A stretch of DNA of 64,000 nt from Halopiger aswanensis (GCF_003610195.1 NZ_RAPO01000002.1:1178001-1242000), one strand, 5' to 3'; positions 32,462-45,887 are shown, counted from the first letter of the stretch. The notes: generated by a model from the sequence alone, not told the origin. A program made the numbers and translations.

Positions 32462-34213
32462 CTACTTCTCCTCGACGTGGCGCACTTCGGCCGCGATGCC
32501 GCGCGTACTTTCGGCCATCTCCCGGCCGAACATCTCGGCGCGGCCGACGGCGAAGGCCCTCGGCCCCTCGACGATGACCTCGTCGCCGACGCGGATGTCT
32601 TCGTCGGCGTCGACGACGCCCGGCGCGAGCACGCTACCGTGGGGGACGAAGCCGTCGATCTCGACGCGCTTGACCGGCGCGTCGCTCTCGAGCCAGCGGC
32701 GCGCGCCCTCGAGCGTAAAGGAGAGGGTGCCGTACTGCGGCACCATCGTCGCGAGTTGCTCGTCGTCGCCGTCCCGAACCTGGATCTTCGGGTAGCGACT
32801 CGTCGTCTGGATGTCCTCGAAGAGGTCGTCGCCGGCGCCGTCGCCGAGCAGGTAGTCCGCGATGGCGCGGACGGTGTTGTGCTCGCGCTCGCGCTTGGAG
32901 TACTTGAGTTCGCCCGACAGCGCCGTTCCGAGGTTCGAGAGGGACTCGTCGTCGGTCGGGTGCTCCGCGACGGTGTAGGTGATATCGAGCTCGAGTTCGT
33001 CCTCGACGCGCTCGACGATGTCGCGGTAGCCCTCGTCCGGAACGTGGGCGATGATTTCGGGGTACTCGTTGCGCTCGAGGTAGCGTCGCAGCACCTCGCT
33101 GACGAACCGCTTCTCGTCTTCGGACCAGCGGCCGGTGACGACGGTGTCGTAGTGTTGAGCCGGGTAGGTCGTCTCGAGTTCCTGCGGGACGACGCCGATC
33201 GGCGAGGTCATCGAGACGAGGTGGGCGCGCCACTGGATGATGTCGTGGAACTGCCGGTGGCTCTGGGACTCGCTGTAGGGCTTGGTGGCCGAGCAGGGCA
33301 CCAGCACGAGCGGGTTGTCGAAGCGGTTGCGGTACCTCGTGGTCACGCGGTCGGCGAAGCGCTGGATCTCGACGCGCCGGAGGGTGTCCTCGGTCGCCGC
33401 CGAAATCTGGGCGTCCCGGAGGATGGGCGTGCGCTCCTCGAGGTACCCCCACTGGTCGTCCAGTTCCCGCATGGCGGCGGTGAGCCACTGGTCGTGGCGG
33501 GCCTGGCCCTCGACGTAATCGCGAAGCCGGCCGTCCCGAATCCGCCGGCGGACGATCGCCAGTTCCGACTCGAGGGCGTTGCGGTTGTGCTCGGCGCAGT
33601 CCTCGCGGGTGAACTCCTCGCGGGGTTGCTGGCATGCGGGGCAGTTACAGGGCAGTTCCTCGAGGTCCTCGAGGAAGTAGGCCTCGTCGGTGGTGAGATA
33701 GCGCCCCTCCGTCCCCTTCACGACGGCCGCCGTCGCGTCGAAGATGTCGACGCCGACGTAGGCCAGCAGGGCGACGTTGCGCGGCGTCGCGACGCCCGAG
33801 AACAGCAAGGCGGTGTCGGTCGGGATCTCCTCGCGGACGTTCACGACGGTCTCGACCAGCGCCGCGCCGTGGCCCATCGCGGACTGGACGTCCGAGACGG
33901 CGTAGGCGTCGGTGCCGTGATCGTCGACGTGGTCGCTCGAGACGACGGCGACGCTGGGGTAGTCGACGTCGGGGTAGTCGACGGCGAAGGATTCCTGCAC
34001 TTCGTCGGCGGTGCCGCCGGGGAACGCGCGGTGCGGAAGGACGGTGAGTTTCGAGTCGTCACCCTCGGGGATCTCGCGAGAGTTGCTCCACAGCGAGCCC
34101 GCGTCCTCGAGCAGGTCGTCGACGAGCGCGGGGGTCGTGTGGGACTCAGTGAGTCGCAACTCGCCCACGCGCGCGGCCCCGTCGCGCTCGTGTACTTCGA
34201 AATACTCGGTCAT
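32462..34213 (-). CDS. arcS: Archaeosine synthase ArcS
   Basis: A 583-residue enzyme that acts after TgtA on preQ0-modified position 15 of tRNA to complete archaeosine. The N-terminal half resembles TgtA with a Zn site (CNCPACQQP) but lacks transglycosylase activity in the family. The diagnostic PCSATKPYSESQSHRQFH segment lies in the middle, and a C-terminal PUA RNA-binding domain (about residues 505-580) contains VEIDGFVPHGSVLAPGV. The Met at 34213 fits the family. Its partner TgtA is encoded 3.6 kb upstream on the same strand, with antiporter and regulator genes in between. Confidence 0.93.
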   Translation of the reverse strand: MTEYFEVHERDGAARVGELRLTESHTTPALVDDLLEDAGSLWSNSREIPEGDDSKLTVLPHRAFPGGTADEVQESFAVDYPDVDYPSVAVVSSDHVDDHGTDAYAVSDVQSAMGHGAALVETVVNVREEIPTDTALLFSGVATPRNVALLAYVGVDIFDATAAVVKGTEGRYLTTDEAYFLEDLEELPCNCPACQQPREEFTREDCAEHNRNALESELAIVRRRIRDGRLRDYVEGQARHDQWLTAAMRELDDQWGYLEERTPILRDAQISAATEDTLRRVEIQRFADRVTTRYRNRFDNPLVLVPCSATKPYSESQSHRQFHDIIQWRAHLVSMTSPIGVVPQELETTYPAQHYDTVVTGRWSEDEKRFVSEVLRRYLERNEYPEIIAHVPDEGYRDIVERVEDELELDITYTVAEHPTDDESLSNLGTALSGELKYSKREREHNTVRAIADYLLGDGAGDDLFEDIQTTSRYPKIQVRDGDDEQLATMVPQYGTLSFTLEGARRWLESDAPVKRVEIDGFVPHGSVLAPGVVDADEDIRVGDEVIVEGPRAFAVGRAEMFGREMAESTRGIAAEVRHVEEK

Positions 34214-37821: not shown

Positions 37822-39297
37822 TTACGCCCCTGTAAGATCGATCAGGTCGACCGAGTCGGGAACGCGCTCGAGGACGTCGGCCGGCCAGCCGCGGTGTGCG
37901 AGCGCGAGATCGGTGTCGGGGTTCGCCGCGGCGAGTTTGGCGACGCCGTCGGCGGCGGCCGCCTGTGCCGCACGATCGGTCCGTGCAGGCACTTCGGCGG
38001 TGAGCGGGTAGCTCTTCGAGAGCGCCCGCGGGAACGGGCCGAAAGGCGGTTCGACCCGCCAGGAGTCGTCGTACTGGTCGCCCCGCGGCGCGTCCCCCTC
38101 CGTGAGCAGGAGCGAGTCCGGCACCGAGAGCCGCTCGAGGCGCTCGTGGTGCCGGAGAACCTCGGGACGGCGCGCGCTCTCGTGGGAGACGTGGAAGAAC
38201 GCGCCCTTCGAGACGGGATCGGACCGCTCGAGTTGCGCGGCGTGGTCGAGCAGCGTCCGGTAGCCGTCGAGCATCGTCGGGTGGGCGCGGGCGCGCTGCT
38301 CGACGAGTTCGAGGAGGTTGCCGGCGCGGATGGCCTGTTTGACGCGGCGGATCTCCTCGAAGGTGACGTGGAGGTTGTGCGCGGCGAGTTCCTCCTCGCG
38401 AGCGCGGTCGGGCAGCGCGCGGAGGTCGTCGGGCGAGTGCTCGGTGCAGACCGGACAGGAACAGGGCAGGTACTCGAGGTCCTCGAGTTGGCGGGTTCCG
38501 CGGACGGTGAGGTAGCGGTCGTCGCGAGCGTACAGCGCGTAGGCCGCGGAGTCGAACAGGTCACAGCCCATCGCGACGCCGAGCGCGAACATCATGGGGT
38601 GGCCGGCGCCGAAGAGGTGGACCGGCGCGTCGGCGCCCAGGCCGCGCTTGGCGGCGGCGACGACGTCGACCATGTCGTCGTACCGGTAATCGTTCATCAG
38701 CGGGACGACCGCACCGACGGGGAAGACGTCGAGGGCCGTCGCGTCGGCGTGGCGGCCGGCCTCCTCGCGGAGGTCGGGGTAGGTCGATCCCTGGACCGGC
38801 GCGGTAACCAGCATGTCGCCGGTGTCGACGGTTTCGGCGACCTCGAGTCGTTCCTGCGTGGTCGCGAGTTCGTCCTCGGCGCGCTCGCGGTCGACGTCCG
38901 GCGGCGTCGGAATGTCGACCGGCGTGCCGATGTCCGAGCCGATCCGGTGCTGGAACTCGAGGATCTCCTCGGTGGTGACGTCGATCTCGCCGTACTCCGA
39001 CAGCTGGAACGAGCCGGAGTCGGTCATGATCGCGCCGGGGAAATCCAGCACCTCGTGGAGGCCGTCCTCGAGGGCCCGCTCGCGGACGTCCTCCGTTCCG
39101 TGGATGATGTAGGAGTTCGTGATGAGAATCTCGGCGCCGAACTCCTCGGCCATGCGGCGCGGACTGATCGTGTCTAAGTTTGGGTTGATCACCGGCAGCA
39201 GGGCCGGCGTCTCGACGGTGACGTCCGCGCGGGGAACGGTGAGTTCGCCGATTCGCCCGCCGGCGTCGGTGTCCCGGATCTCGAAGCACTCGCGCAT
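37822..39297 (-). CDS. tgtA: Archaeal tRNA-guanine(15) transglycosylase TgtA
   Basis: A 491-residue enzyme that swaps guanine-15 of tRNA for preQ0, the first step to archaeosine. The start [19 protein letters not shown] and [15 protein letters not shown], with Asp93 in the substrate-binding loop, identify it. The nucleophile region [20 protein letters not shown] and the zinc site CSCPVC are present. It ends in the C-terminal region [14 protein letters not shown] and lacks a long PUA tail (about 490 residues, usual for haloarchaea). Works with ArcS. Confidence 0.94.
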
Positions 39298-39631
39298 CGG
39301 CCGTCCGTTGGCGGGGCCGACGTAAGTCAGTGCAGGTTTCGACCGACCGTCCGGTCGCCGTCCGGTTGGTGTCAGTTCGCGATAGTCGGGCAGCTGATCG
39401 CGCGGTAAATATTCCGTTTTCCGGCGGTTTCAGCCCTCGAGCAGCAATCGCAGGCACAATCCGGATTTGCTAGGCGATCGGAACGGATGTCGAGTTCGAT
39501 TACGGTCATCGATCCCGATACGGTGAAACGCCGATTAGCGACCGTTGCAGGATTCAAACTGGCTGTTTCTTCGGGACAAGCCCGTAACAGTCACCTCGTT
39601 TTAGCCGTCCGACGGCGGTAGCACCGGGTGC
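39298..39631. other. Intergenic region before the pentad-repeat gene pair
   Basis: No convincing gene. A minus-strand frame at 39372-39509 could encode 45 residues with a Cys cluster (DCACDCC), but it has no other support. The right end, 39582-39607, is nearly identical to 41257-41282 before the second paralogue. Confidence 0.45.
39582..39607 (+). repeat. Duplicated promoter element, copy 1
   Basis: A 26-base block containing CGTAACAGTCACC and CGTTTTAGCCG, 25 of 26 identical to 41257-41282. TTTTAG lies about 30 bases before the ATG and may be the TATA box. Confidence 0.7.
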
Positions 39632-40987
39632 ATGGTTTCACGATCACAGCAACTCGGTGTGGTCTTCATGGCACTGCTAGTCGCCATCTCGGGGGGTCCC
39701 GCCCTCGCAGGTGCGACAACAACAGCCGACGACGCCGAGGCGGGAGACGTGAGCGCAACGCTCGAAAACGTACAGGTCGAAACCCTCGATCTCGATAACG
39801 TGACGGTCGAGAACGCGACGATCGAGGAGCTGAACGTCGAGGAGTTCGACGCCGACACGTCCGAACTCGAGGACGAGCTCGACGCCGGTGGCGAGAACGA
39901 GACCGACGCGGCCGACGATAACGAAACTGACAACGAAACCGCGTCCGCCGGCGAGGAAGTGACGATATCCGACATCCAGCTCGAACAGCTCGAACTCGAG
40001 AACGTCTCGATCGAGGAACTCGAGCAGGACGGCGATAACGAGACCGACGCTGCCGACGACAACGAGACTGATGTTGCTGTCGACGAAGACGACAACGAAA
40101 CTGACGTCGCCGTCGACGAGGATGAGAACGAGACCGACGTCGCCGTCGACGAGGAGGACAACGAAACGGACGCAACCGACAACGAGAGCAGTCAACAGAG
40201 TCTGATCGACGAGGGCACGAGCGAGCTCACCGTCCAGGAGCTCACCATCGAGACGATGGACGTCGAGCAGCTTTCGATCGACGAGATCACCGTCGAGGAC
40301 GGCACGGGCACCGACGAGATGGCGGACAACGAGAGCGACGATAACGAGACGGACGTCACTCTCGACGAAGACGACAACGAAACGGACGTCGCTATCGACG
40401 ATGACGACAACGAGACGAACGTCAGCGTCGATGAAGACGATAACGAGACCGACGCGACCAACGAGAGCAGCAGCGAGCAGCAGTTCGAGGAGCTGACCAT
40501 CGAACAGTTCGACGTCGACGAGATCAGCATCGACTCGATGACGGTCCAGCAGGTCGAGGAAGGAACCGCGGCTGACGATGGTTCGGACGGTCTCGACAAC
40601 GAGACGGACGATAACGAGACGAACGTTAGCGTCGACGACGACAACGAGACCGACGTCGCCATCGATGAGGACGACAACGAGTCCGAAACGGAAACGATGA
40701 CCGACGACGCGGACAACGAGACCGCGTCCGACGGCGAGACTGAGACCGTCTCGCAGGCGTCCGCGTCCATGATCGAGATCGGCAACGCGACCACCGACAC
40801 GCTGACGCTCGGCGACGCCGCCGACCTCGAGAACATCGGACAGACCGACGACACTGAGACGAACGATACCGAGACGGACGTCGGGATGGACGACGAAGAC
40901 GACAACGACACCGAGACGACGAACGACAGCGAGCTCGGTGACGACGACAACGAGAGCGACACCGAGCTGGCCGCCATCCTGCACTGA
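39632..40987 (+). CDS. Exported sequon-rich pentad-repeat protein, copy 1
   Basis: A 451-residue exported protein. Sec-type signal (residues 1-27, GVVFMALLVAISGGPALAG). Five short modules follow a five-residue rhythm of hydrophobic-x-hydrophobic-x-x: about 44-73, 110-131 (TISDIQLEQLELENVSIEEL), 198-223 (TVQELTIETMDVEQLSIDEI), 286-309 and 378-402. Between them lie acidic linkers made largely of DDNETD units. I count about 30 N-x-S/T sequons, mostly NET, so heavy N-glycosylation is possible. No lipobox and no PGF-CTERM-like tail. It may be a small solenoid held by glycosylated spacers, in the cell surface or matrix. Not a family I recognise. A paralogue follows. Confidence 0.8.
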   Translation: MVSRSQQLGVVFMALLVAISGGPALAGATTTADDAEAGDVSATLENVQVETLDLDNVTVENATIEELNVEEFDADTSELEDELDAGGENETDAADDNETDNETASAGEEVTISDIQLEQLELENVSIEELEQDGDNETDAADDNETDVAVDEDDNETDVAVDEDENETDVAVDEEDNETDATDNESSQQSLIDEGTSELTVQELTIETMDVEQLSIDEITVEDGTGTDEMADNESDDNETDVTLDEDDNETDVAIDDDDNETNVSVDEDDNETDATNESSSEQQFEELTIEQFDVDEISIDSMTVQQVEEGTAADDGSDGLDNETDDNETNVSVDDDNETDVAIDEDDNESETETMTDDADNETASDGETETVSQASASMIEIGNATTDTLTLGDAADLENIGQTDDTETNDTETDVGMDDEDDNDTETTNDSELGDDDNESDTELAAILH

Positions 40988-41307
40988 TCGCCCGGTCGTT
41001 CACGCGGGACAACGCACGCGACCGGTCGGTCGGTCGACTGGTCACCCGGCTATCTTTTTCGACGCGTACTGTCGCCCCAGTAAAATATTGTTTTCTGAGG
41101 AGTTCTATAAGGCGGTAGCGGTCGCAGGCAGAACGCTGAGGGCGCTCGAACGAACGTTCAAACTCGCCGTTCGAGACACTCATCGAAACGGAAACGAGGA
41201 ACGGACGATTAGGGCGCTTCGGGCGGATTCTAACGCCGTGTTTCTGCGAGATAACGCCGTAACAGTCGCCTCGTTTTAGCCGGGATACGCCGGTAGGAAG
41301 GTAGTGC
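40988..41307. other. Spacer between the paralogues
   Basis: 320 bases with no supported gene. Its last part duplicates the promoter of copy 1. The middle is lower in GC, with AATATTGTTTTCTGAGGAG near 41084. No transposon ends found. Confidence 0.45.
41257..41282 (+). repeat. Duplicated promoter element, copy 2
   Basis: Matches 39582-39607 at 25 of 26 bases and lies at the same distance from its start codon (25 versus 24 bases), so the duplication that made the gene pair included the promoter. Confidence 0.7.
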
Positions 41308-42513
41308 ATGGTTGCACGATCGCACAAAATCGGTGTAGTATTCGCGGCGCTGATGGTTGCCCTTTCATTTTCGGGGGGTTCCGCCCTCGTCGGTGCGACG
41401 ACAGGGACAACCGCGACTGCGAACGACGCTGAAACGGGAGACGTGAGCGCGACGCTCGAAAACGTACAGGTCGACGTTCTCGAACTGGAGAACGTTACCG
41501 TCGAGAACGCGACGATCGAGGAGTTGAACGTCGAGCAACTCAACGCCAGTACGGAGCAACTCCAGCAGGAGCTCAACGCGAGCGAGGACGGCAACGAAAC
41601 GAACGCAACTGACAACGAGACGAACGCGACGACCGGCAACGAAACGAACGCCACCGGAGAGAGCGTGACGCTTTCCGGCATCGAGATCGAGCAGCTCGCG
41701 TTCGAGAACGTCTCGTTCGAAGAGCTCGAGCTGGATAGCGGTGAAATGGCGGCTGACAACGCGACGGACGACAACGAAACCGACGACAACGAAACTGACG
41801 ACAACGAGACCGGCATGACCGCCGGCGACATGAACGAAAGCAGCGGGCAGGATCTGATCGAGGAAGACACGAACGAGCTCGCGGTCCAAGAGCTCACCAT
41901 CGAGACGATGGACGTCCAGGAGATGTCCGTCGAAAGCCTCGAGGTTGAGGAAGGTGGCGGCATTCTCGGCCAGATCGGCGACTTCATCGGCGGCATCTTC
42001 GGCGGCGACGGAGACGGCGGCGGTGACGAGAACCAGAGCGGCAACGAGACGAACGCGACCGCCGGCAACGAATCCGCACAGGAGATCGACGAGCTCACGA
42101 TCGAGCAGTTCGACGTCGACGAGGTCGTGATCGACCAGATGTCGATCCAGAGCCTGCAGGAAGGTGACGCGGCTGCCGGCAACGAGACGGCCACCGAGAA
42201 CGAGACTGGCATGGAGTCCGAGAACGAGACGGCCAACGAGACCGAGATGGACACCGAGATGGACACCACGAGCGGCGAAACCATCTCGCAGGCCTCCTCG
42301 GCACACGTCGGCATCGAAACCCTCGAGGCCCAGAACATGACCATCGAGGATCCGAGCGACCTCGAGGACGTGACGGCGAGCAACGAGACGAGCGGAAACG
42401 CGACGGACGAGAACGCGACCGGCGAGAACGAGACCGGCAACGAGTCGGCCAACGAAAGTGAAGAAGTCGGTGGCGTAGACAGCGCGAGCGACGATGAAGA
42501 GGCCGGACAGTAA
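41308..42513 (+). CDS. Exported sequon-rich pentad-repeat protein, copy 2
   Basis: A 401-residue paralogue of the preceding gene, with a Sec-type signal (GVVFAALMVALSFSGGSALV). The same five modules occur in the same order: about 50-79 (LENVTVENATIEELNVEQL), 119-142, 190-214 (LAVQELTIETMDVQEMSVES), 260-284 (DELTIEQFDVDEVVIDQMSI) and 330-354. Linkers are shorter and richer in Asn-Ala-Thr; I count about 31 sequons. Unlike copy 1 it has a Gly-rich hydrophobic insert after module 3 (GGGILGQIGDFIGGIFGG), perhaps a membrane-touching or assembly segment. Function unknown; shared modules with diverged linkers suggest the modules are the working part. Confidence 0.8.
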   Translation: MVARSHKIGVVFAALMVALSFSGGSALVGATTGTTATANDAETGDVSATLENVQVDVLELENVTVENATIEELNVEQLNASTEQLQQELNASEDGNETNATDNETNATTGNETNATGESVTLSGIEIEQLAFENVSFEELELDSGEMAADNATDDNETDDNETDDNETGMTAGDMNESSGQDLIEEDTNELAVQELTIETMDVQEMSVESLEVEEGGGILGQIGDFIGGIFGGDGDGGGDENQSGNETNATAGNESAQEIDELTIEQFDVDEVVIDQMSIQSLQEGDAAAGNETATENETGMESENETANETEMDTEMDTTSGETISQASSAHVGIETLEAQNMTIEDPSDLEDVTASNETSGNATDENATGENETGNESANESEEVGGVDSASDDEEAGQ

Positions 42514-42785: not shown

Positions 42786-43340
42786 TTACGCCGTCGCCTC
42801 GAGCAACTGGTAGTACGACAGCGCGAGTACCGTGCGGCCGTCGCGGATCTCGCCGTCGCGGACGGCTGCGAGCAGGTCGTCGAACGCCAGCGGCGTCACT
42901 CTGATGCTCTCGTTGTGATCGAGTTGCTGGTCCGCGCTCGGCCGACAGCCGCGGGCGACGAAGAAGTGGACCACCGAGTCGGCGATGCCGTTGGCCGGCT
43001 CGACGGTCACCAGCGGCTCCAACTCGTCGGCTTCGTGGCCGGTTTCCTCGCGGAGTTCGCGTCGGGCGGCCGCCTCGAGGTCGTCGTCCTCGGGTTCGGT
43101 GCCGCCGACGGGGAGGCTGCGGTTGACCCGGTCGACGGCCTGGCGCCACTCCTCGATGCAGACGACGTCCCCGTCGGGCGTGAACGGAAGGATGGAGACG
43201 CTTTCGGGCTCGGAGACGTAATCGAAGTCGGTTTCGGTCCCGTCGGGGAGGCGAACGGACTCGTTAACGACGTCGAACCCCGGACAGGAGTAGACGACGT
43301 CCTGCTCGAGGGTGTCCCAGGCGAGCGGATCCGATGACAT
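42786..43340 (-). CDS. NUDIX hydrolase (ADP-ribose pyrophosphatase-like)
   Basis: A 184-residue Nudix enzyme. The Nudix box runs from Gly80 to His102, GGTEPEDDDLEAAARREL then REETGH; the first Glu of the consensus is Asp86 here, while the metal-binding R-E-L-x-E-E core is intact. EEWRQAVDRVNRSLPVGG before the box is the pattern of ADP-ribose/nucleotide-sugar pyrophosphatases. Start at 43340 (MSSDPLAWDTLEQ). Substrate unproven. Confidence 0.9.
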   Translation of the reverse strand: MSSDPLAWDTLEQDVVYSCPGFDVVNESVRLPDGTETDFDYVSEPESVSILPFTPDGDVVCIEEWRQAVDRVNRSLPVGGTEPEDDDLEAAARRELREETGHEADELEPLVTVEPANGIADSVVHFFVARGCRPSADQQLDHNESIRVTPLAFDDLLAAVRDGEIRDGRTVLALSYYQLLEATA

Positions 43341-44363: not shown

Positions 44364-45887
44364 TCAGTAGTCGCTGTCGTCGCTCTCGTTGGTCACTGAC
44401 TCGTTGTCGACGTCCGACTCGTTGCCGACGTCCGACTCGTTGCCGACGTCCGACTCGTTGCCGACGTCCGACTCGTTGCCGACGTCCGAATCGTCGTCAA
44501 GCGCGGATTCGGACTCAGTATCCGCGTCGTCGGCGTCCTCGTCGTCACCCATCGGCTCTTCGTCCATCTCCTCGGCCGAGTCGTCATCGACGTCGTCGGC
44601 GTCGTTCGCATCCATCGTCCCGTCGAGGAGGATGGTCGTGTCGAACGAGCGGTCGTCCTCGTCGGCCGATCCGTCGTCCGACTCGTCGCTGCTGCCGAGG
44701 TCCGAATCGGTCTCGGTCCCGTTGTCGTCGTCCGTTTCGTTGCCGATGCCCGCGGTTTCGTTACCGGCGTCGTCAGTCCCGTTGGCGTCGACATCGGCTT
44801 CCTCGTCGGATGCGTCGCCGCCGAGGTCGTCGGCCGGCTCGAGGTAGCCGATCGCGTAGATCGTGTAGCCCTGCCCCCGGTCGACCTCGAGGTCGACGGA
44901 GGCGACGGGTTCGGGGTCCTCGGTGCCGATCGCGTCGGACTCACCGTCCGCATCGCCAGCCTCGTCGTCGCTGGCGTTGAGGCCGGACTCGTCGTCGCTG
45001 GCGTTGAGGCCGGACTCGTCGTCGCCGTCGGCTTCCATGCCACCGATGACGGGGCCGTCCACGTCGGCGGCGTCGTAGATATCGAGCGTCACGTCGCCGG
45101 CGGAAACGCCGATGTATCCGGACGGTTCGGTGTACCCGACATCCTCGAAGAGCACCTGCCCGGAATCGACGGCGACGGCGACGTTCGGGGCGTCCGGCGA
45201 GGCGTGGACCAGTCGGACCTGGCCGGCGTCCTCGCCCTTGATCGCGTTGTCGACCTCTTCCTCGGGTCGGTCGACCAGCAGGAGGACGTCGAACGTGCCC
45301 GTCTCCCCGAGCGGGTCCTCGTCAGCGGCGCCCTCGTCGTCGGGCTCGACGACCTCGTCGTCCGTAGCGTTGTCGTCGCCGTCCGTTTCGTTGGCGACCG
45401 ACTCGTTGCCGTAGTCGCCGGCCTCGGAGTCGGTGCTATTGTCGTCGCTATCGGACGAGAGAGCGTCACCTTCGTCAGCGCCGAGGCCGCCCGCCTCGTC
45501 CTCGAGTTCGAGTTCGCCGATCGCGGCGGCCGTGTAGTAGCCCGAGCCGACGTTGATCTGCTGTTCGTAGACGACGGCTTCCTCGTCGCCCGCGGCCGTT
45601 ATCGTCAGGGTATACGTGCCCGGGATGATCTCGAGATACGGCGAGACGTCGTCGTACGCGACGTCCGTGAGGATTTGCTGGTCGTTAACGTAGACGTCCA
45701 CCTCGGGCGCGTCGGGCGAGAAGTGGGCGACGCGGATCGCGCCCGTCTCCTCGTCCTCGTCGGCCTGTGCGGATTCGTCTCGCTCGTCGTCCTCGTGCTG
45801 GTTGACCGCGAGGACCGAGTTCGAGAGGGCCGATCCTGCGCCGACTACGCCGATCGTCTTGATGGTCGAGCGTCGTGAGAGTGTCAT
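44364..45887 (-). CDS. Tat-exported DUF4397 protein with sequon repeats
   Basis: A 507-residue exported protein. The N-terminus MTLSRRSTIKTIGVVGAG is a Tat signal without lipobox. The first DUF4397 domain (about 48-127) has IRVAHFSPDAPEVDVYVNDQ; the second (about 222-420) has VRLVHASPDAPNVAVAVDSG and YTIYAIGYLEP. Acidic Asp/Ser/Asn-rich stretches interrupt the second domain around residues 285-325 and 355-412 and form the C-terminal third, which ends in DVGNES repeats. Many N-x-S/T sequons (NES, NET, NAS). Probably a secreted or S-layer-associated protein; DUF4397 is a beta-sandwich of unknown role. Confidence 0.87.
   Translation of the reverse strand: MTLSRRSTIKTIGVVGAGSALSNSVLAVNQHEDDERDESAQADEDEETGAIRVAHFSPDAPEVDVYVNDQQILTDVAYDDVSPYLEIIPGTYTLTITAAGDEEAVVYEQQINVGSGYYTAAAIGELELEDEAGGLGADEGDALSSDSDDNSTDSEAGDYGNESVANETDGDDNATDDEVVEPDDEGAADEDPLGETGTFDVLLLVDRPEEEVDNAIKGEDAGQVRLVHASPDAPNVAVAVDSGQVLFEDVGYTEPSGYIGVSAGDVTLDIYDAADVDGPVIGGMEADGDDESGLNASDDESGLNASDDEAGDADGESDAIGTEDPEPVASVDLEVDRGQGYTIYAIGYLEPADDLGGDASDEEADVDANGTDDAGNETAGIGNETDDDNGTETDSDLGSSDESDDGSADEDDRSFDTTILLDGTMDANDADDVDDDSAEEMDEEPMGDDEDADDADTESESALDDDSDVGNESDVGNESDVGNESDVGNESDVDNESVTNESDDSDY
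44409..44493 (-). repeat. 18-bp tandem repeat inside the DUF4397 gene
   Basis: Four perfect copies of GACGTCCGACTCGTTGCC (plus-strand reading) at 44409-44480 and a partial fifth to 44493. In the protein this gives DVGNES units, each with one sequon. Identity at the DNA level suggests recent expansion by slippage or unequal exchange. Confidence 0.9.

Follow-up and report, generated by a model that had tools for sequence, protein, structure and literature searches.

Pentapeptide repeat proteins (the PF00805/PF13599 clan) fold as a right-handed quadrilateral beta helix, and loops inserted between their coils are known, as in QnrB1 and Rfr23 (PMC8145042). Halomucin of Haloquadratum walsbyi has been proposed to hold water round the cell (PMC4378361). 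In the window, the whole 64,000-nucleotide stretch of Halopiger aswanensis DNA analysed here, two tandem genes, A and B, encode proteins with likenesses to both. A preliminary description of this DNA had pictured a pair of exported proteins that share five modules and their order; both open reading frames are as described there, and each begins with a Sec-type signal peptide. Cleavage of A would occur near ALAGA/T, and the cleavage position in B is likewise a prediction.

39632..40987, + strand: gene A, encoding P0001 (451 aa), an acidic exported protein of five modules that carries 30 sequons
39632..39712, + strand: Sec-type signal peptide of A, seen in the sequence and kept among homologues
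41308..42513, + strand: gene B, encoding P0002 (401 aa), an acidic exported protein of five modules that carries 31 sequons
41308..41397, + strand: Sec-type signal peptide of B, seen in the sequence
37822..39297, - strand: tgtA, encoding tRNA guanosine(15) transglycosylase, a conserved gene flanking A, outside the system
42786..43340, - strand: NUDIX hydrolase gene, conserved neighbour on the B side, outside the system

Across the 41 loci examined, tgtA lies nearby in 36 and the NUDIX gene in 33, and the order tgtA, A, B, NUDIX is the ancestral arrangement. The pair is split in genus g15, where A lies with tgtA and B with the NUDIX gene (L041 and L046 against L040, L042 and L045). When the modules are placed in a tree, 15 A copies group as a single clade (support 0.93), which indicates that the A/B pair goes back to one old duplication. 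Both archaeosine genes, arcS (window 32462-34213, - strand) and tgtA, lie less than 7 kb apart, and this neighbourhood is conserved across many Natrialbaceae.

Homologues were found in 99 of the 125 Natrialbaceae genomes, spread over 26 of the 29 genera, including Natrinema, Natrialba, Haloterrigena, Natronorubrum, Natronococcus and Halopiger, and divergent relatives with the same five modules occur in at least four other haloarchaeal families of the order. A search of the genome contigs with P0002 by itself confirmed no relative, and the profile search succeeded; weak matches, possibly driven by linker composition or an extra Ig-like domain, were left uncounted. The expectation that other species would show the same module order together with signal peptides was borne out by these searches. 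Neither P0001 nor P0002 has a match in Pfam or NCBIfam, and literature searches returned no description of the family, consistent with the earlier view that the design has no named family; a group present in most Natrialbaceae, with relatives across the haloarchaea, is without a model in either database. Plasmids and phages gave no family match, so a mobile origin was rejected, and the family is old and chromosomal. In one copy (G103:C6:72126-75436) a frameshift has probably broken the gene into open frames of 246 and 189 aa.

The modules of A were delimited by homologue alignment and period-five analysis, and those of B by alignment, with the corresponding AlphaFold2 (AF2) strand given by residue.

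39755..39856, + strand: module 1 of A
39956..40024, + strand: module 2 of A
40211..40300, + strand: module 3 of A
40484..40558, + strand: module 4 of A
40745..40825, + strand: module 5 of A
41446..41547, + strand: module 1 of B (predicted strand 62-81)
41662..41730, + strand: module 2 of B (predicted strand 119-137)
41869..41949, + strand: module 3 of B (predicted strand 190-213)
41953..42006, + strand: amphipathic segment GGGILGQIGDFIGGIFGG of B, after module 3 (predicted helix 219-226)
42079..42162, + strand: module 4 of B (predicted strand 257-285)
42271..42351, + strand: module 5 of B (predicted strand 323-346)

Hydrophobic residues in the modules recur at a lag of five (z = 8.6 for A and 8.1 for B) and of ten (z = 7.3 and 6.8), with lags 1, 4, 6 and 9 strongly negative, so that the five-residue rhythm first noted in this DNA is upheld statistically. 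The unit is h-x-h-x-x, with Leu, Val or Met at position 1 and Ile or Val at position 3, and each window module consists of 4-6 contiguous units, with linkers between modules. In an alignment of 58 homologues the five modules match column by column and their order is fixed; conserved module residues include T69, I70, T197-E199 and T264. The amphipathic segment, GILxxIxDFxxGLF, is conserved in B copies and absent from A copies, and similar segments occur in relatives from family f4. Additionally, 30 of 68 homologues carry a short hydrophobic C-terminal tail beyond the acidic tract, compared with 2% of internal windows. The preliminary description was silent on the amphipathic segment and these tails, as it was on the duplicated promoter and the sequon-free orthologues described below.

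The mature proteins lack Lys, Arg, Cys and Trp altogether, with a calculated charge at pH 7 of about -165 (A) and -103 (B). Proteins without Lys or Arg would be missed by trypsin-based proteomics. Inspection of the translated sequences revealed no PGF-CTERM, lipobox Cys or C-terminal transmembrane segment, leaving neither protein with a predicted surface anchor.

Between the modules, the linkers are encoded by DNA tandem repeats of 15, 18, 24 and 33 bp, all multiples of three, as exemplified by one linker of A.

40055..40172, + strand: NET-rich linker of A, built of 33-bp DNA repeats (DDNETDVAVDE units)

Modules had been described as more constant than linkers, and indels agree: 13 close pairs have 275 gap positions in linkers and 10 in modules, although linker alignments are uncertain. 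The dN/dS ratio (0.26 in modules, 0.30 in linkers) does not set the modules apart; module dN is lower but so is dS, and the case for module constraint is thus made from indels and alignment, not from dN/dS.

N-x-S/T sequons number 30 in A and 31 in B, matching the original count of about 30 per protein and far above 2000 shuffles (mean about 6.5, maximum 15). Close pairs retain 560 of 591 sequon asparagines (95%) and 86 of 109 others (79%), figures that are indicative, as the aligner favours Asn-Asn matches. Across the extracted homologues, however, sequon number ranges from 0 to 46 and D+E content from 18 to 57%, the two being inversely related (Spearman -0.87, partly a matter of composition). 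The sequon linkers built into the original picture are hence non-random and conserved where present, but sequons do not define the family, many orthologues having 0-5.

Linker chemistry differs by lineage, being NET-rich, bare Asp/Glu or Thr-rich, and linkers are sometimes nearly absent; they appear interchangeable in chemistry. Relatives from family f17 have Thr-rich ETTTAAAEETT linkers, and in one of these (L140) modules 1-3 are almost contiguous. Three other f17 relatives (L227:2683-3705, L228:2181-2906 and L229:2725-3498) are compact exported proteins of 241-340 aa in which the period-five sequence is almost unbroken, with few linkers and no Pfam pentapeptide match. Relatives from family f5 (L139:3733-5232, L204, L205 and L213) carry a helical-looking insert of ~100 residues instead of the module 4-5 linker, followed by a C-terminal Ig-like (CARDB/NEW3-like) domain.

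The oligosaccharyltransferase gene aglB is present in the window genome, its product matching TIGR04154 above the cut-off (E = 2.2e-265), and among 12 genomes, with both pH niches represented, 11 contain an AglB that scores above the curated threshold; it is also recorded for Nab. magadii (PMC3403918). A and B share with AglB-type N-glycoproteins an export signal, sequons and AglB in the genome.

Within the Natrialbaceae, linker type tracks pH niche, with niche labels assigned by taxon and partly checked, and not from measured pH optima. The checks covered soda-brine MAGs at pH 9.5-10.2 (PMC4766312), Natrialba magadii (PMC3403918), Natronococcus amylolyticus, Natrarchaeobius and Natronobiforma (PMC9726719), and, through titles in PMC8530250, Natronorubrum bangense and Natronorubrum texcoconense. 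Among 67 proteins encoded by named genomes, the 40 of haloalkaliphiles show median values of 0.2 sequons per 100 aa and 47% D+E, and the 27 of other species 6.6 sequons and 28% D+E (Mann-Whitney p = 7e-12 for sequon density, the species not being independent). Neutrophiles hold 673 sequons where composition predicts 154, and alkaliphiles 59 where it predicts 74; 87% of asparagines lie within sequons in the former and 6.5%, the chance level, in the latter. Asn content is 8.7% versus 5.7%. Plain avoidance of Asn by alkaliphiles was dropped as an explanation, their 5.7% being retained outside sequons.

The contrast is also seen within genera: Natrialba asiatica has 17 sequons while N. hulunbeirensis and N. 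chahannaoensis have 0-1, and Halobiforma haloterrestris has 11 in each protein while H. nitratireducens has 2 and 0. Both paralogues of a genome agree in linker type although they diverged before the genera did, and the module tree implies about nine switches between the high and low sequon states, so the niche pattern is not one event. Exceptions under alkaliphile labels are Natronoglomus (11 sequons) and Halostagnicola A-GB9-2 (10). Such niche-linked gain and loss provides a direct natural test of the role of N-glycans at the archaeal surface, and of whether high pH disfavours them. A neighbouring DUF4397 protein (PF14344; window 44364-45887, - strand), exported with a Tat-like signal and bearing NES/Asp-rich linkers, has 16 sequons here versus 0-4 in alkaliphile homologues; given this similar trend, the switch may be general to secreted proteins or low-complexity segments.

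Upstream of both genes lies the same motif.

39584..39605, + strand: family promoter motif GTAACAGTC-N4-CGTTTTAGC before gene A, exact, with conserved spacing
41259..41280, + strand: family promoter motif before gene B, exact, with conserved spacing

In many genera, the sequences preceding A and B copies have in common the pattern ...AAC....TTTC..CGAGATAAT.CCGTAACAGTCGCCTCGTTTTAGCC; for 64 of 68 copies, the last base of its GTTTTA lies 28-29 nt ahead of the start codon. The haloarchaeal TATA element is TTWT (PMC4983044), and the spacing of GTTTTA fits a TATA element whose transcript would be leaderless, or nearly so. The exact 22-bp pattern GTAACAGTCNNNNCGTTTTAGC occurs 74 times in 63 of the 125 genomes, and its reversed control 0 times; 73 of these sites lie 26-83 nt before the start of a family gene, 66 of them at 27 or 28. 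The remaining site (L239, G015:C1:2367761) falls between the NUDIX gene and tgtA, where there is no family gene, and we read it as a relic promoter left by gene loss or relocation. In the window genome, the mismatch-free motif occurs only before the two family genes. A wider regulon was considered and rejected: the genome adds one site with one mismatch, and otherwise weak matches near the control level. Relatives in other families have a related element, AACRGYY-N5-GTTTAT. A and B are probably co-regulated, from near-identical promoters with a family-specific upstream element, and a promoter element of a single family makes a clean bait for an archaeal regulator.

The beta solenoid hinted at earlier stays a plausible candidate. 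The AF2 model of P0002 (58 sequences) contains five strands whose block pLDDT reaches 92, against values under 50 for the linkers, and has a pTM of 0.51; that of L226, a short-linker relative (44 sequences), has five strands with pLDDT up to 94 and a pTM of 0.59. Overall, module pLDDT is 80-94, the modules being confidently predicted as beta structure and the linkers as disordered. Foldseek returned no significant match for either model against the PDB (E < 0.001) and none against viral structures, and its weak beta-helix matches were not taken as evidence; searching PDB sequences likewise yielded no match with E under 0.01. With these pTM values and no Foldseek match, a single stacked core stays a hypothesis. 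Sub-threshold matches to Pentapeptide_4 (PF13599) occur in 17 of 44 relatives (E < 0.1), the best two reaching E = 1.9e-4 and 2.5e-4 with scores of 21.5-21.8 bits, where the cut-off is 38. Of 1044 units, 104 (10%) fit the updated pentapeptide consensus at all five positions and 285 at four or more; the centre residue is Ile in 39%, Val in 38%, Leu in 14% and Phe in 5%. Taken as models, the modules plausibly form a pentapeptide-like solenoid, and the near-contiguous modules 1-3 of L140 suggest that the ancestor may have had the contiguous units expected of pentapeptide repeat proteins.

We propose, tentatively and at somewhat less than an even chance, that a stacked beta-solenoid-like core with disordered anionic linker bristles forms a hydrated cell coat. 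After Sec export of each protein, the five modules would adopt beta structure and, most probably, stack into one small core to which each contributes roughly one turn (20-25 residues); the near-contiguous modules of L140 and the compact L227-L229 suggest that linkers are dispensable and that the modules form one unit. The disordered linkers, variable in length and almost without positive charge, would loop out between coils as bristles. These we take to be the functional surface: hydrated and strongly anionic, they would serve as a coat or spacer at the S-layer, either on it or beneath it. In neutral brines the NET-repeat linkers could be glycosylated by AglB, and in soda-lake lineages bare Asp/Glu stands at the corresponding positions. 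The broader scheme, in which a constant folded core has its polyanion swapped by pH niche (N-glycan versus carboxylate), in step between paralogues and under a near-exclusive promoter, we hold with the same reserve, a little short of evenly balanced. The family, its module order, export signals, promoter, linker switch and sequon conservation were established computationally.

Alternatively, the modules might be beads on a string that fold only with modules of other chains, so that beta contacts between modules would cross-link the proteins into an extracellular matrix polymer, as the preliminary description had suggested, and the linkers would act as elastic, glycosylated spacers. Long disordered linkers do part the modules, the hydrophobic C-terminal tail of 30/68 homologues could serve as a donor strand, and the A/B pair could be a heteropolymer; we nevertheless consider this unlikely, since modules are nearly contiguous in L140, L226 and L227-L229, AF2 places them as a monomer (at moderate pTM), and there are always five non-identical modules in fixed order, whereas polymer-type repeats vary in number. 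Improbable to a similar degree is a role in ligand binding or adhesion, in which a solenoid face or the amphipathic segment would attach to the S-layer, to a lipid or to some partner, while the linkers would be no more than tails for solubility in high salt. The strongly conserved module residues, the GILxxIxDFxxGLF segment of B copies with its f4 counterparts and the Ig-like domain of some relatives would suit such binding, but linkers whose sequons are gained and lost by niche in both paralogues are not neutral tails, A copies lack the amphipathic segment, and no binding-site family was detected.

The in-frame tandem repeats and indels by which linkers vary (275 versus 10 gap positions) would also be expected of a surface decoy or shield, in which abundant acidic or glycan material keeps haloviruses and proteases from the cell and changes under pathogen pressure; a linker dN/dS of about 0.30 does not indicate diversifying selection, and niche explains most linker variation, making this a very unlikely reading. 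Finally, G+C-rich repetitive DNA can leave several frames open, but the idea of spurious frames, or of acidic low-complexity sequence without common function, is refuted by the conservation of modules and promoter over about 26 genera, in which the spacing is fixed and signal peptides and synteny are kept.

The anionic coat that we favour can be set beside described systems. Like halomucin, A and B are secreted haloarchaeal proteins; by description, halomucin has 9159 residues and mucin-like BLAST matches, whereas members of this family have about 400 aa and five short beta modules. With the S-layer glycoprotein and other AglB substrates the family shares export, acidity, an abundance of N-x-S/T in neutrophiles and the presence of AglB. 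It differs from them in that its sequences show neither an S-layer family match nor an anchor of the PGF-CTERM or transmembrane kind, and in that its sequons are nearly gone in alkaliphile orthologues. The DUF4397 neighbour is likewise exported, with acidic linkers and fewer sequons in alkaliphiles, but has an unrelated domain and a Tat-like signal.

Pentapeptide repeat proteins are comparable in their period of five with two inward-type hydrophobics, here at positions 1 and 3, in turns of 20-25 residues, near the 20-residue Rfr coil, and in the below-cut-off PF13599 matches of linker-poor relatives. In contrast to the Leu/Phe of pentapeptide repeats, position 3 is Ile/Val (77%) and position 1 mostly large, as if the sizes were swapped; the window proteins have at most about six contiguous units with long acidic linkers between them, and neither a Pfam pentapeptide match for P0001 or P0002 nor a Foldseek match was obtained. 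Perhaps, then, the family works as pentapeptide solenoids do without being classed among them.
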